In this document: positions 18,282-28,306 of the stretch, one piece after another
How positions within the stretch are numbered: position 1 is the stretch's first letter
Layout: every line of letters begins with the position of its first letter
NCBI GenBank assembly: GCA_002772895.1
Contig: PFCS01000064.1
Coordinates: forward strand, 1 to 47,641
Direction of reading: 5' to 3'
DNA: 47,641 bases
DNA from: Parcubacteria group bacterium CG10_big_fil_rev_8_21_14_0_10_36_14
GTDB taxonomy: Bacteria > Patescibacteriota > Patescibacteriia > GCA-002772895
Program-made: the position numbers and the translations under genes
Notes under the pieces: generated by a model
Seen by the model: the letters and a program-made list of their open reading frames with translations, nothing else
The model's database searches: none
Told to the model about the DNA's origin: nothing

Positions 18282-18962
18282 TTATATCATTTCCGAAACA
18301 ATTGCCCAAATTTTTTCGTGGATAAGGTCTATAGAAAGAAGTTCGCCGTTTTCTTCGCATTTTATCCGTACCCAGTTATTCATTTCCGAAACAAGACGAA
18401 GAGACTGTTCGTGCGAATCGGTTTGATGTTCTACACTGGATTCCACGCCGTCTTTTTTCGCGCCACCGGTATAATTGCGCGAGGCTTTTTTTTCAATAAG
18501 AATTTGCGATGTTTTTGGTTGAACGTCAAGGTATAAAATGAGGTCAGGGCGGGGGATTCCAAATACTCCATGTTCAATTTTATCTAGCCAATTCAAAAAT
18601 GTTTTACGTTTTTCTTCATCTTTTATTTTTCCGCCTTGATGAATCTGGTTTCCACTCACATATCTGTCTAAAAGGATAATTTTTTCTTCCGCCAGCCACT
18701 GGCGTATTTTTTCGCTTGATTCATATCTGTCGGCAGCATAAAGGACAGATGCAAGATATGGGTTAAACTTTGTTGGGTCGCCAAAATCTCCGCGTAAAAA
18801 ACAACCAATAATATTTCCAAAATGATTATTGTAATATTGCGGGAAATCCAATGTCTCTACTTTACGTCCTTCGTCAACAAACCGCTCTATAAGTTTTTTT
18901 GTTTGTGTCGCTTTGCCAGAACCATCAGTCCCGTCAATAACTATTAGTTTACCCAAAGGCAT
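18282..18962 (-). CDS. tmk: Thymidylate kinase
   Basis: Phosphorylates dTMP to dTDP. From ATG 18962 it is 226 residues. The P-loop is DGTDGSGKATQTKKL (about residues 9-23), ADRYESSEKI is the substrate-contact motif, and LLDRYVSGNQIHQG is the DR(Y/H) block. An upstream in-frame start at 19064 would run into thyX and adds no conserved sequence. It starts 13 nt after the thyX stop, so the dTMP synthase and kinase form one unit. Confidence 0.95.
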   Translation of the reverse strand: MPLGKLIVIDGTDGSGKATQTKKLIERFVDEGRKVETLDFPQYYNNHFGNIIGCFLRGDFGDPTKFNPYLASVLYAADRYESSEKIRQWLAEEKIILLDRYVSGNQIHQGGKIKDEEKRKTFLNWLDKIEHGVFGIPRPDLILYLDVQPKTSQILIEKKASRNYTGGAKKDGVESSVEHQTDSHEQSLRLVSEMNNWVRIKCEENGELLSIDLIHEKIWAIVSEMI

Positions 18963-18975
18963 AGAAATTTTTAAT

Positions 18976-20385
18976 TTATTTATTTCCAACGGTAGAAAAT
19001 GTTGTATCATCCATATCCACGGCAATATATTTTGCCAATAACGGATGAACGCTTTCCACTTCACGCCAGCATTCTTGTGCGATACGGCGATAAGATATAT
19101 GTCCTTTTTTACCGGAGCGTAAAGGTATAAAATGATGAAGCTCGCGCAAATTCCAAGTAATTAGAGTGCGTTTTTTATATGCCAGTGGCACGATATATTG
19201 CGCTTCTTCTGGAAATTCTTTTATTAGTTTTTGATAAGCTTCTTCTGCTACGGCCATAGCATTTTTAAATCCCGTTTCATAACCAGCTTCTATTATTTCA
19301 TCCGGTATGGAATATCCATGCACAGTTGTAACGGCTTGGTTGGTCTGGGTTGCCATTCTATGGCGCTGGATGTCACGAAAAGCCCCGTAGTCCATTAGAA
19401 TATCAAAAGTGTAATAAATATGCTCAAGCTCGCGCAAAGGCCTGTCATACGGCTTTTTATACTTTAAAGCCTCATTTATAATTGCTTCTTTTATTGCCAT
19501 CGGCATGCGTTCTATATTATCTTTTATCTGTGAATAGGGGAGAGTGCTAGTTTTATAAAGAAGCGAAGCAATCAATTTATTATCCGCCGATTTGTCATAA
19601 TTAACAAGTTTTACGGCAATATTGGAATTTGCCGGCTGAATACCAAAAATCCATTCATTTAATTTGCGGAGTTCTTGGTCTGTTTTTTGCAGATATTCAT
19701 TTGGCTCTGCATATTTTATCAGGGTAGGAGTTATTTTTTGTCCAACATTTTTTATTTCGCGTCCGATTTCTTGCATTTCTTCCAAAGGATGCGAGAGTAG
19801 TTTGGCAATTGCCCATTCCAAAGCTCTTGCGTTCATAGTAAGTCCGAGATTTGTTTGGGTTGCTGTTGGTAAAAGATAGCGGATATTATCACAGGCACGC
19901 GCTTTACTTACTGATTCATAAAGCTTTTCGCCCATATTTTCCGGTTTTGGATATTTTTTCTTTACAAAATTCATCATTGGTTCTGTCAGGGCTTCATAAA
20001 CTTGAAAAAGGTAATCGCCTGTTCGTTCGTATGTCTCCGCAAAAGGAGAATTTATAATTCGTTCCGGCTTGTAATATGTGTTTTTATCAAAAATTTGATA
20101 ACGGGTTGATTTTTCAGTATAAGATGCAAGGCGGTTATCTTCCAGTACTTTTGTTGCCAAAATTGATAGGTTTTCTACCGCAATAGAAAGAACGGCGTGT
20201 TCTGCAACAGATGAGTGGCCATAGCCTACGACCCATTTTTCATGAAATTCGCTTGATTTTTCTTCGGTCAGTTCTTTTGCTATTTCATCAAAAGGTTCTG
20301 GGGAGCGTGAACATTTTGCAAAACAAACCGCTTTTATCTCCGGTGTTAATCCCTCCAATGTATATATACGAAGCTTATTTGACAT
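18976..20385 (-). CDS. thyX: Double-length ThyX-family thymidylate synthase
   Basis: FAD-dependent dUMP methylation to dTMP. At 470 residues it is about twice a normal ThyX and reads as two fused ThyX domains. Domain 1 has GYGHSSVAEH (54-63), RLASYTEKSTRY (85-96), corresponding to the second half of the RHRxxSxNExSxRY motif, and a TMNAR segment. Domain 2 has RHR (341-343) but then MATQTNQAV, losing the S/E/S/R part, and later TWNLRELHHF. The signature is thus divided between the halves. ATG 20385 is used; longer starts lack conserved sequence. Next gene is tmk. Confidence 0.88.
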   Translation of the reverse strand: MSNKLRIYTLEGLTPEIKAVCFAKCSRSPEPFDEIAKELTEEKSSEFHEKWVVGYGHSSVAEHAVLSIAVENLSILATKVLEDNRLASYTEKSTRYQIFDKNTYYKPERIINSPFAETYERTGDYLFQVYEALTEPMMNFVKKKYPKPENMGEKLYESVSKARACDNIRYLLPTATQTNLGLTMNARALEWAIAKLLSHPLEEMQEIGREIKNVGQKITPTLIKYAEPNEYLQKTDQELRKLNEWIFGIQPANSNIAVKLVNYDKSADNKLIASLLYKTSTLPYSQIKDNIERMPMAIKEAIINEALKYKKPYDRPLRELEHIYYTFDILMDYGAFRDIQRHRMATQTNQAVTTVHGYSIPDEIIEAGYETGFKNAMAVAEEAYQKLIKEFPEEAQYIVPLAYKKRTLITWNLRELHHFIPLRSGKKGHISYRRIAQECWREVESVHPLLAKYIAVDMDDTTFSTVGNK

Positions 20386-20468
20386 AAAGGTGTTAGAGTT
20401 ATAAATTATAGTAGGAGTTCTTTTTATCAGTTTATAACAAAGCGGTGGAGCGCGCAAGGAGGGTCAAA

Positions 20469-21218
20469 ATGCTTGAAAATGAGGCGAGAAAAGATTTTTT
20501 GAAATGCATCGAAGAGTTTCCGGAAAATGAAGACGGCTTTGAGCTTGGACTGCATTATAGTTTTTTCCAAAAATTAGTGAAGATATTAAAAACAGAATAC
20601 AGATGGAAAAAATACGCTATGAAAAACCGTAGCGTTCAGGGCGGTGGCGAAGGTCAGGAAATGCCGGAAACTTTATTGGATCATATGTTACATAAGTTTA
20701 TGGTTGCTTCTGAGATGGTAGCAATTGAAAAGGGGTATGGTGGACATAAGAGTTTAGAAATCAGGCGTCGCCAGCTTTATTTGTCTTTTTTTATGTATAG
20801 CTTGGCTATGGCGGCTCATGGTGAAATATCCTTAATGGATAAAAATGCGTATGACTTGGCACAGGAAGATAATACTTTCATGAATTTTCTTAGAAAATAT
20901 CCGGAAGTAGCGCATGGACCGTTTAGAAGAGCATACGAGCTTTCACAGGAAAGAGATAGGGCGATTTTGGCCGGCAAAAACTTGGATAGTATTTCTGTAA
21001 CCGGAAGATTTTTGTGGGCGATTGTTGTAGCAACGTTTTTGGACAAATCGCTTTATGAAGTAAGGCGTGGTCAGCTTGCCTTTGCAAATACTTTTCATAA
21101 CGTTTGGGAAGATATTGAGCCTTTAATGAGAGAGTTTTATTCTTTTAGAATTAAGGTTTCGCCGATTTTATCGGAAATCAAGGGATATATGGATAGCTAT
21201 CCGCGTTGGGCTGAATAA
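20469..21218 (+). CDS. HD-superfamily paralogue with the HD dyad lost
   Basis: 249 residues, clearly paralogous to the protein at 21640. Shared are the (T/L)xxHxx...MxAIEK block, EISL/GISL, and especially the C-terminus (SLYEVRRGQLAFANTFHNVW against ALYEVRAGNLPFVNVFYDQW). The first histidine (H72) aligns, but the HD dyad aligns with Ala-Met (about 113-114), so metal binding and hydrolysis are probably lost. It may be a regulator or sensor subunit; that is inference. AAGGAGG stands 6 nt before ATG 20469, so the TTG at 20445 is rejected. Its terminator begins inside the stop codon. Confidence 0.72.
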   Translation: MLENEARKDFLKCIEEFPENEDGFELGLHYSFFQKLVKILKTEYRWKKYAMKNRSVQGGGEGQEMPETLLDHMLHKFMVASEMVAIEKGYGGHKSLEIRRRQLYLSFFMYSLAMAAHGEISLMDKNAYDLAQEDNTFMNFLRKYPEVAHGPFRRAYELSQERDRAILAGKNLDSISVTGRFLWAIVVATFLDKSLYEVRRGQLAFANTFHNVWEDIEPLMREFYSFRIKVSPILSEIKGYMDSYPRWAE

Positions 21219-21242
21219 TCCTCATTTTTATGGGGATTTTTT
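21217..21242 (+). terminator. Rho-independent terminator
   Basis: AATCCTCA (21217-21224) pairs with TGGGGATT (21231-21238), one G-U, followed by T6. The stem starts inside the stop codon. Confidence 0.82.
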
Positions 21243-21262
21243 AACTGTGGATAACTTTTGGG

Positions 21263-21291
21263 TTTACACTAATAAAAAAGAGGACTAAACT
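21263..21291 (+). promoter_or_regulatory. Promoter of the 21324-22404 pair
   Basis: TTTACA (21263-21268), 17 nt, TAAACT (21286-21291). A DnaA-box-like TGTGGATAA (21246-21254) lies just upstream. Confidence 0.55.
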
Positions 21292-21323
21292 TGAAAGTAA
21301 GTTCTTTTTTTAAGGAGGGAAAA

Positions 21324-21653
21324 ATGGACGAAGCAGACAGCTATCAAGATAAAACATATAGTCCACTTACGCATGACAAACAAAAGATTAGAGACGATTT
21401 GGTAATGTTTTGTCGAGAAGAGGGTATTGAAGTGCGTGATGGCTTTATGAAGATTCGCCTTGTTTTGTGTGAAGATTATTTAACAAGAATTTATAAAAAT
21501 CTTCCGACCAGAACCATAAAAACACTTTTGGATATAATGATTCTGCAAGGTATTGTGGGAATAAGAAGAGGCGAGAATACTAATAGATGGTATATTTTAA
21601 TTCCAGAGCATGCCAGCTTTGCGATAAAGGAGGGTGAAGATGAAACCAAATAG
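21324..21653 (+). CDS. Small protein with possible winged-helix fold
   Basis: 109 residues, no family recognised. The second half reads as helix-turn-helix plus wing: LPTRTIKTLLDIMILQGIVG (about residues 60-79), then IRRGENTNRWYILIP as a beta hairpin. DNA binding is plausible but unproven. AAGGAGGG (21312-21319) precedes ATG 21324. The end overlaps the HD-protein gene by 14 nt, so the two are translated together; it may regulate or partner that enzyme. Confidence 0.65.
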   Translation: MDEADSYQDKTYSPLTHDKQKIRDDLVMFCREEGIEVRDGFMKIRLVLCEDYLTRIYKNLPTRTIKTLLDIMILQGIVGIRRGENTNRWYILIPEHASFAIKEGEDETK

Positions 21654-22404
21654 AAAGTTGTTTAGAGATTATTTATTTGCCTTGAGAGATGCTGGAAGGA
21701 AAATAGACTTAATGGAATTTACTGCATTTTGCCGATCGTTTACTAATTCATTGGCAGAAGAAAAAAGATACGAATTATTGGCGGGCATTAGCAGGAAATA
21801 TAATTTTTCAGAATCAGGTGAGGTTTTGCCGGAAGCAGTTTTGACTCACACTGCATTTGATACGCCTTTTTTGGGGAATATGATGTTAGCGATTGAAAAG
21901 TACAAAGAAACTGCAGAATATAATTTTTTAGATAGCTCTTTATTGCAACTTGCATTTTTTGTTCATGATTTTGCCGAAGGTATTAGTTTGAAGGGTGATG
22001 TTGATTTTATAAATAAAGATAGCGCGGTTGAAAGAGAAGAAGAAGAAGCTTTGGAGTTATTGTTTTCAGTGCTTCATCCTGCTCTGGCGAATGAAATTAG
22101 AAAAGCGACTCTTATGGTTGAAACGGTTCCGCCAATTTGGCGAAGAGGGGAGACGCCGGAAAAAGTAGGTCTAACCGCACAGTTTTTTAATGCGGTAGAA
22201 AATGCTGGATATGTTTCCCGCGCGCTTTATGAAGTGCGGGCAGGAAATTTGCCTTTTGTGAATGTTTTTTATGATCAATGGGAAAAAGTTGAATATTATA
22301 TTAAAAAGTTTGAATCGTTTAGATCTCTTATTGAACCGCATTTGGAATTTATGGAGGACTTCAGAGAAAAATATAAAGATGCGCCGTGGCGTCATCAAAA
22401 ATAA
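21640..22404 (+). CDS. HD-domain phosphohydrolase-like protein (YfbR-like)
   Basis: 254 residues. The HD signature is visible: H70 (LTHTAF), HD at 109-110 (FFVHDFAEGISLKGD), then an EREEEEAL helix, as in HD_3/YfbR-type nucleotidases. The expected distal aspartate is not obvious (FFNAVENAGYVSRAL has Asn), so activity is uncertain. AAGGAGGG before ATG 21640 argues against GTG 21634. It is paralogous to 20469-21218, with a small possible winged-helix gene between them. The whole locus carries strong Shine-Dalgarno sites unlike the neighbouring housekeeping genes. Confidence 0.75.
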   Translation: MKPNRKLFRDYLFALRDAGRKIDLMEFTAFCRSFTNSLAEEKRYELLAGISRKYNFSESGEVLPEAVLTHTAFDTPFLGNMMLAIEKYKETAEYNFLDSSLLQLAFFVHDFAEGISLKGDVDFINKDSAVEREEEEALELLFSVLHPALANEIRKATLMVETVPPIWRRGETPEKVGLTAQFFNAVENAGYVSRALYEVRAGNLPFVNVFYDQWEKVEYYIKKFESFRSLIEPHLEFMEDFREKYKDAPWRHQK

Positions 22405-23890: not shown

Positions 23891-23925
23891 AAAATTCCCC
23901 TTAATCCCCCTTTACGAAAGGGAGG
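23891..23925. repeat. Right inverted repeat of the DUF559 element
   Basis: AAAATTCCCCTTAATCCCCC followed by TTTACGAAAGGGAGG; inverted partner of 23504-23540. It starts 5 nt upstream of the DUF559 start and supplies the last codons (SLLPFVKGD) and stop of the upstream gene at 23901. Confidence 0.72.
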
Positions 23926-24467
23926 AGACTATTTATAAATTCGTCAACTTTTTCTTTTAATTGTTCTATGTTTCCGTCATTTATTATTGTATAATCGGCC
24001 ATTTTAATCAGTGGAGCAAGGTTTTGTTTTCCTTCACCACCTTCCATTTCTCGTTCTTCTTGCAATCTAAATTTTTCAAAAGATATTTCATCGCCTTCGC
24101 GTTGTCTATTTTTTATTCGTTCATAGCGAAGTTCAATCGGCGCATCTACTGCGACAAAAATAAAATTATCTTGGTTTTTAAGATATTCAGCTTCTTTTGG
24201 GTTTCTGATGCTGGTTATTATATATTTTTTTCTATTTTCAATGTTTATTTTTTTTATTATGCGTTTTGCCAAAACATCATAACCTTCTGTGGCGCGTAAC
24301 TTATTTGCAAGAGAGGTAAGTGTGTCGCGATCTTTTGGCAGGCCTTGATTATCGCACTCTTCTCTTATAGCGTCTGATAAAGAAAAATGAATAAATCCTT
24401 TTTGTTCAAGGTATTCTGCAACCGTATCTTTTCCTGCGCCAAGTGTGCCCGTAACTCCTATAATCAT
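23901..24467 (-). CDS. Dephospho-CoA-kinase-like P-loop kinase
   Basis: 188 residues from ATG 24467. The P-loop GTLGAGKDT (7-15) is followed by VAEYLEQKGFIHFSLSDAIREE, typical of CoaE-like or nucleoside-monophosphate kinases often annotated as dephospho-CoA kinase. YIITSIRNPKEAEYL and FVAVDAPIELRYERI fit the same fold. Whether it is the true CoaE is uncertain; a dNMP kinase would suit the dCMP deaminase upstream. It begins 1 nt after that gene's stop, so they are coupled. Its C-terminus is made of repeat sequence. Confidence 0.75.
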   Translation of the reverse strand: MIIGVTGTLGAGKDTVAEYLEQKGFIHFSLSDAIREECDNQGLPKDRDTLTSLANKLRATEGYDVLAKRIIKKINIENRKKYIITSIRNPKEAEYLKNQDNFIFVAVDAPIELRYERIKNRQREGDEISFEKFRLQEEREMEGGEGKQNLAPLIKMADYTIINDGNIEQLKEKVDEFINSLLPFVKGD

Positions 24468-24468
24468 A

Positions 24469-25047
24469 TTAGTATATTTGTCTGAAAGTATTAATCGGGG
24501 GATATTCTTGCTGAAGTTCTGCATTTTCTTCTAGTATAACTTCTTTTTCATTTACTTTCTTTACATTGTTTTCAAATAAGTTTTTTATATTTTCGTTCCA
24601 TTCTTGATTGGGTACGTAAAAGACAACTTCTAATCCAGCTTGTTTTAAGTAATCCATTGCTTGCGAGTTGCGATAAATTGTTTCAATAACAATTCTTTTA
24701 ATTCCGGCAGCAACGATATATTTGCAACAATGAATACAGGGTGAATAAAGAGCATAGAGAGTGGCACCTTCGGTAGTCTGTCCGGCAGTTACGGCGGCTT
24801 GTAAAATCGTGTTATGCTCGGCGTGGATTGTACGGACGCAGTGTCCTTCTTCCATAAGATGCCCTGCTTCGCTGTCACAATGCGGAAGCCCGGGCGGAGA
24901 ACCATTGTAGCCTGTGGATATTATTCTTTTATTTTTAACTAAAACCGCGCCAGCGCGAAGTCTGTCGCAAGTGCTTCTGGTGGCGATAATGCGCGCAATC
25001 GCCATGAAGTAATCGTCCCATGACGGACGGATAAAATTTTCAGCCAT
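24469..25047 (-). CDS. dCMP deaminase family protein
   Basis: 192 residues of the cytidine/deoxycytidylate deaminase fold. The zinc site is HAEHN (histidine plus catalytic glutamate) and SPCIHCCK (PCxxC). STGYNGSPPGLPHCD is the ComEB/dCMP-deaminase block. It would convert dCMP to dUMP, the ThyX substrate, linking it to thyX-tmk at 18282-20385. The C-terminal tail (about 45 residues) is extra. It is preceded by a good sigma70-type promoter and is coupled to the downstream kinase gene. Confidence 0.93.
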   Translation of the reverse strand: MAENFIRPSWDDYFMAIARIIATRSTCDRLRAGAVLVKNKRIISTGYNGSPPGLPHCDSEAGHLMEEGHCVRTIHAEHNTILQAAVTAGQTTEGATLYALYSPCIHCCKYIVAAGIKRIVIETIYRNSQAMDYLKQAGLEVVFYVPNQEWNENIKNLFENNVKKVNEKEVILEENAELQQEYPPINTFRQIY

Positions 25048-28000: not shown

Positions 28001-28306
28001 ATGAAAAAGCTTTTTGGAATTTTTATTTTGATGATTGCTTTTTTTGCAACCGGATGTATGGCGACAATGCGGACAAGAAATATTTCAATGGAAAAATGCA
28101 AAATTCCGCCATCAGTTACAGAATGCCATTTGGTTTATTATCATAATTACGAAACCAAACAAGAGCGGTATAACGGTGTTATCAAAATTAAAATTCCTTG
28201 TGAGAGGATGAGGGAATTAATGAAGGGGAGGTATTGCACGGGAGAGTACAATGTATATACTAAGCCAGAAGAAAAAGAAAATCATAGCAGACATAGTGAT
28301 GCTTAA
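28001..28306 (+). CDS. Small lipoprotein, unknown function
   Basis: 101 residues. The signal peptide MKKLFGIFILMIAFFATGC ends in an ATGC lipobox with C19 as the lipid site. The mature part has four further cysteines (KCKIPP, ECHLVYYHN, PCERM and YCTGEY) and a basic tail, with no known domain. GAGGAGG (27989-27996 region) precedes the ATG. It has its own promoter and terminator, although it stands next to the other lipoprotein gene; the two are not obviously paralogous. Confidence 0.7.
   Translation: MKKLFGIFILMIAFFATGCMATMRTRNISMEKCKIPPSVTECHLVYYHNYETKQERYNGVIKIKIPCERMRELMKGRYCTGEYNVYTKPEEKENHSRHSDA

Follow-up and report, generated by a model that had tools for sequence, protein, structure and literature searches.

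YfbR of Escherichia coli (Pfam PF12917/PF13023; PDB 2paq, 2par and 2pau) and Lin2634 (3mzo) share the HD-domain fold and a typical R-W...H...HD..E....D signature. In E. coli YfbR dephosphorylates dCMP on the thymidylate route (PMC11592144), and a YfbR-like enzyme of T. brucei prefers dCMP, dUMP and dTMP (PMC5098729). Other HD phosphohydrolases, namely HDDC2, YGK1 and YGL101W (human 4dmb, yeast 5yox), likewise keep the HD dyad. Catalytically dead paralogues with a function are known from elsewhere. In trypanosomatids those of AdoMetDC and DHS form an activated heteromer with the active enzyme (PMC5201418, PMC3663545), and in RelA a hydrolysis-dead HD domain acts as a regulatory switch (PMC8012599). 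Literature searches yielded nothing on YfbR-type enzymes with a pseudoenzyme partner, nor on the present locus in Patescibacteria.

Here, we describe a YfbR-like subfamily in which an intact copy is repeatedly paired with one that has lost its active site. The enzyme family itself is known and the repeated pseudoenzyme pairing is the new part. The locus lies in a window of 47,641 nucleotides (the whole stretch of DNA that was analyzed) from a Parcubacteria genome of 0.93 Mb in 65 contigs that is 99% complete.

Organization of the locus

An earlier reading based on the DNA letters and their open reading frames (the sequence-only reading) had proposed three forward-strand frames, two of them HD-fold paralogues with a possible winged-helix gene in between. 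All three, here named A, M and B, are present (Table 1), and each remains below every Pfam and NCBIfam cut-off. The trio is flanked on one side by thyX and tmk, the start codons of thyX and A being 83 bp apart, and on the other side by genes for an APH-type phosphotransferase, a DUF559 ORF, the nucleotide kinase, the dCMP deaminase, L1 and L11; all these flanking genes are located on the reverse strand.

Table 1. Genes and candidate transcript signals in and around the trio (positions in the window)
Feature	Position	Strand	Basis
Thymidylate kinase (tmk)	18282..18956	-	Pfam Thymidylate_kin, E 6e-20
thyX, flavin-dependent thymidylate synthase, transcribed away from A	18976..20385	-	Pfam Thy1, E 4e-57
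Promoter-like site for A, TTGACA-17-TAAATT	20379..20407	+	consensus match only
Gene A, YfbR-like paralogue, 249 aa, predicted catalytically dead	20469..21218	+	alignment, AF2, Foldseek
Terminator-like hairpin 3' of A	21217..21238	+	consensus match only
Promoter-like site for M-B, TTTACA-17-TAAACT	21263..21291	+	consensus match only
Gene M, orphan 109-aa protein, predicted winged-helix topology	21324..21653	+	AF2 single-sequence, Foldseek
Gene B, YfbR-like HD phosphohydrolase, 254 aa, intact site, predicted 5'-deoxynucleotidase	21640..22404	+	alignment, family profile
Nucleotide kinase	23901..24524	-	AAA_18; weak DNMK match; same-site homologues in other cluster genomes
dCMP deaminase	24469..25047	-	Pfam dCMP_cyt_deam_1, E 3e-25

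The trio is probably read as two transcripts, since a terminator-like hairpin and then a promoter-like site lie between A and the M-B part. Such signals barely exceed what shuffled sequences give, with ten promoter-like sites in the region against a shuffle mean of 6.5 and two terminator-like hairpins against 1.4, all of them consensus matches.

The strong Shine-Dalgarno sites claimed in the sequence-only reading are confirmed by duplex energies of -11.9 (A), -12.6 (M) and -12.1 kcal/mol (B), whereas those of ThyX, Tmk, GatB, a membrane protein, nucleotide kinase, dCMP deaminase, L1, L11 and NusG range from +2.0 to -1.7 kcal/mol. Of all ATGs that the window contains, about 0.4% reach an energy of -11.5 kcal/mol. 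The adjoining APH gene (-8.5 kcal/mol) and DUF559 ORF (-8.3 kcal/mol) have moderate sites. The sole other listed gene of the window with an equally strong site encodes a lipoprotein-like ORF of 101 aa (28001-28306, forward strand). On the coding strand the trio shows a G-over-C skew of 0.28-0.30 at ordinary GC content. At third codon positions the skew amounts to 0.26 to 0.57 in the trio and to -0.39 to 0.11 in neighbouring genes.

The end of M overlaps the start of B by 14 nt, as was already seen from the sequence. A single-sequence AF2 model of M (pLDDT 76.3; two of five models confident) predicts helices at residues 19-33, 46-56 and 62-74 and strands at 41-45, 79-82 and 89-94. This order, H-E-H-H-E-E, corresponds to the winged-helix topology H1-S1-H2-H3-S2-wing-S3, so the suspected wing is supported by the model. 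In Foldseek most of the matches to it are winged-helix proteins, though with weak scores (E >= 0.012). Pfam, NCBIfam, PHROGs and PDB contain no match of note, no homologue was detected in 286 genomes of the class or in viral contigs, and 287 genomes of the phylum gave chance-level matches only (E >= 0.0037, low identity). A trio conserved in order, for which the sequence-only reading had proposed a search, is therefore rejected for the genomes covered, and A-M-B does not form one conserved operon. Related genomes hold a single gene at the site that the trio fills. One may guess that M regulates the locus transcriptionally; a search for a common operator in the two intergenic regions revealed no convincing shared repeat.

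Fold and family assignment

Both large proteins belong to the HD-domain fold related to YfbR and HDDC2, A according to its model and B according to its homology with A and the subfamily profile. The AF2 model of A (pLDDT 75.5, pTM 0.77) finds its best structural match in human HDDC2 (4dmb) with probability 1.00 and TM scores of 0.59 (query) and 0.75 (target); over 4dmb and 2par the Foldseek probabilities are 0.97-1.00 with E-values of only 0.015 and up. Searched against solved structures, the subfamily profile retrieves Lin2634 (3mzo, E 7e-17), E. coli YfbR (2paq, E 5e-11) and OxsA (E 8e-11), which agrees with the fold first read from the letters. B alone reaches only HD_3 in Pfam, below threshold (E 0.03), and neither A nor B matches PF12917. 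This Pfam family is hit by the member from genome G014 (E 2e-16, 60.4 bits) and by the intact half of a fused protein from genome G017 (E 6e-12, 46.1 bits), the cut-off being 25.9.

The site of B is read as intact, with R43, H70, H109-D110, E113, D120 and E187. The catalytic glutamate and aspartate (E72 and D77 in YfbR, for which E72A mutants are named in PDB titles) correspond to E113 and D120 in HDFAEGISLKGD. The putative metal site comprises H70, H109-D110 and Glu187, the latter in the place of an aspartate of YfbR. Glutamate as third (last) metal ligand, within the motif FFNAVE, is found in nearly the whole subfamily, and so its exact activity could differ from that of YfbR and Lin2634. 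Further differences from these two are a tyrosine in B where most subfamily members bear the substrate-site tryptophan, a two-residue insertion before GD, the presence of a dead sister copy and the location inside a dTMP cluster. The common signature, the profile match and the tie to dCMP and thymidylate supply are shared. B is predicted to be a divergent YfbR-like metal-dependent 5'-deoxynucleotidase.

Loss of the active site in A

A and B are paralogues, as had been proposed, with 25% identity and 50% positives over 218 aa (blastp, E 1e-18). It was also correctly recognized that the HD dyad is present in one copy only. Its counterpart in A is not Ala-Met, as stated in the sequence-only reading, but Tyr110-Ser111: blastp and three MAFFT alignments agree in placing FFVHDFAE of B opposite FFMYSLAM of A. 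Besides the dyad, M114, E119 and V186 stand where the site has E, D and E. Five of the eight pocket positions are thus changed, among them both dyad residues and the last ligand, and from its sequence A is predicted to be unable to bind the catalytic metal. HDDC2, YGK1 and YGL101W, in contrast with A, have kept their dyad. As in prozyme systems a paralogue that has lost catalytic residues (HD replaced by YS, and E, D and E by M, E and V) is thus found beside a live copy.

A retains R45-W46 and H72, the equivalents of which are presumably near the substrate in YfbR. These residues together with the conserved fold would suit a reaction other than phosphohydrolysis in the old pocket, but five of the eight positions are altered and the alignment of A with the two other dead copies known to us (see below) reveals no alternative motif common to them, which makes such a reaction very unlikely.

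Distribution and the dTMP cluster

A profile search detected the subfamily in 15 of 381 genomes of the class (the count includes G364, with a truncated frame and a lower score), apparently ABY1 of Patescibacteria, with Candidatus Uhrbacteria among the relatives. No equally strong match occurred elsewhere in 287 genomes of the phylum. A profile scan of contigs with alignment A3 gave six loci, all among the matches of the genome search.

In at least eight of the 15 genomes, the window included, the HD gene lies within a conserved cluster for dTMP synthesis with Tmk, ThyX or ThyA-DHFR, dCMP/dCTP deaminase, dUTPase and/or a nucleotide kinase. The others are G006, G018, G057, G058, G088, G115 and G364; some identities of cluster genes were assigned by reading of the sequence, and that of ThyA in G088 is tentative. 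The order in G006, ThyX(-), HD(+), kinase(-), dCMP deaminase(-), L1(-), L11(-), is that of the window with a single HD gene where the window has the trio. Both dUTPase and dCTP deaminase are found in the cluster of several genomes, and in G088 there is additionally a thymidine-kinase-like gene. The other subfamily members are located elsewhere in the genome or on short contigs; in G314 the HD gene adjoins uracil phosphoribosyltransferase. Among related genomes of the class, ThyX and ThyA-DHFR substitute for each other at one and the same place in the cluster (loci L048 and L049 versus L041, L047 and L044). Since the HD gene is retained when ThyA replaces ThyX, it is tied to dTMP supply, and its link is with the supply of pyrimidine deoxynucleotides regardless of the type of thymidylate synthase.

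These surroundings bear on the question whether the trio might be a small mobile or foreign module that settled beside thyX. Its G-over-C skew, the strong Shine-Dalgarno sites unlike those of the neighbours and the orphan M would fit such an origin, but in seven other genomes the subfamily is found at this very place of the cluster, the GC content is ordinary and strong Shine-Dalgarno sites also precede HD genes of some relatives (G014, G018 and G088). A foreign module is thus hardly probable. A viral origin of A and B was considered and rejected, as a search of IMG/VR found no relatives of them; viral relatives of M were not found either.

Pairs of live and dead copies and their phylogeny

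Sensing or control by a dead copy had been brought into play from the window only, and the same pairing of enzyme and dead copy now emerges in two other genomes. In G017 both copies are joined in a single protein of 435 aa (L036 5860-7164, reverse strand) with a live N-terminal half (FHDIGEG) and a dead C-terminal half, in which the first histidine is replaced by arginine, HD by HK and the acids by lysine or valine. The public record DYHP01 is titled Candidatus Methylomirabilis, and G017 groups with the class of the window in our analysis. In G058 (L043 593-1471, forward strand; L044 3-389, reverse strand) the live gene is split by a contig end, with an overlap between contigs C8 and C17, and is directly followed by a dead frame of 298 codons in the same dTMP cluster. 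The dyad of this frame reads Gln-His and its top match is the live copy; the copy is very divergent (4.1 changes per column), and its assignment to the subfamily is based on this match (E about 6e-6) together with the gene position. Two adjacent HD genes of G362 (L122/L046 1296-2993) were dismissed as a further pair because neither has lost its dyad and the two are members of a different HD subfamily.

A live copy only is found in 12 of the 15 genomes, in which a search tuned to dead copies detected none, and so the dead copy is not generally required. The same search found no genome with a dead but without a live copy.

Phylogenetic analysis places A next to B as its sister (97/97), the two halves of G017 are joined with moderate support and long branches (87/78), and the dead copy of G058 falls into the group of its live copy with G018 and G088 (93/85). 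A single ancient dead lineage was rejected by the AU test for all three dead copies as one clade (p-AU 0.02), with long branches limiting the tree, and was not rejected for A with the dead half of G017 alone (p 0.105). Thus, the three pairs probably arose separately, and live-dead pairing as such is well supported in the window and two other lineages.

The length of the branch of A (1.8 to 2.0 changes per column) and the absence of a counterpart from most related genomes are what one expects of a duplicate that decays without selection. In contrast with decay, the frame of A has remained free of stops over 249 codons at 25% identity to B (chance about 3e-9 in random sequence of the same composition), its codon-position composition is gene-like, its Shine-Dalgarno site is strong, and the dead copies of G017 and G058 are intact too. 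We regard ongoing decay as having very little probability. Patescibacteria have very small genomes, and a copy kept through divergence to 25% identity in such a genome suggests that it is useful. The repeated combination of active and inactive copies suggests that the inactive one has been maintained as a partner for its active sister.

Putative function

Comparison of sequences and structures establishes the family, the paralogy of A and B, the loss of the site in A, the place in the cluster and the pairing in two other lineages. The substrate class of B is deduced from knowledge of the family. We propose, with a probability of roughly 0.55, that B is an active dNMP phosphatase which is controlled or assembled by its pseudoenzyme sister A. 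B would remove the phosphate from pyrimidine dNMPs (dCMP, dUMP or dTMP) and thereby trim, limit or reroute the dNMP pool that feeds the adjacent thymidylate synthesis. A would be a duplicate that lost the metal-binding and catalytic residues and kept the fold; most likely it forms a complex with B and modulates the activity of B, and it could for instance bind a (deoxy)nucleotide as effector. Sensing or allosteric control by A is plausible. The physical complex, the direction of the effect and the effector we infer, the complex being suggested only by the fusion in G017.

Alternatively A could act independently of B, as a stand-alone nucleotide-binding sensor or as a scaffold for other enzymes of the dTMP cluster. 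This is compatible with the presence of a promoter-like site and a terminator-like hairpin for A alone (consensus matches) as well as with the retained R-W and first histidine, which presumably lie near the substrate in YfbR. Dead copies, however, occur only where a live copy exists, and in G017 both are one polypeptide. That the pairing recurs and was once fused speaks for A acting through B, and an independent role seems rather unlikely.

With the AdoMetDC prozyme and dead DHS the proposed control of B by A shares the combination of an active enzyme with a lineage-specific, catalytically dead paralogue. The folds are unrelated and those systems are eukaryotic; moreover, the heteromer is proven there and proposed here. 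The pseudo-hydrolase domain of RelA is comparable with A as a dead HD domain with a regulatory role and differs in being fused to a (p)ppGpp synthetase, in belonging to another HD family and in regulating another domain type.

For the whole class we put forward, tentatively and with more doubt than confidence, that separate duplications have repeatedly given rise to a dead sister which forms a heteromeric, nucleotide-sensing dNMP phosphatase with the live one of the dTMP cluster, i.e. a bacterial prozyme-type control of deoxynucleotide pools that was once fixed by fusion into one polypeptide. If the three pairs arose separately, this subfamily is a natural test case for the evolution of pseudoenzyme control in bacteria. 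If the proposed role of A is true, thymidylate supply has an extra control point that is missed by standard annotation (Pfam/NCBIfam).

No dUTPase of PF00692 was detected in the 99% complete genome of the window, in which dCMP deaminase, ThyX and thymidine kinase are present. Since the thymidine kinase encoded there could recycle nucleosides, a dN/dNMP cycle is possible.
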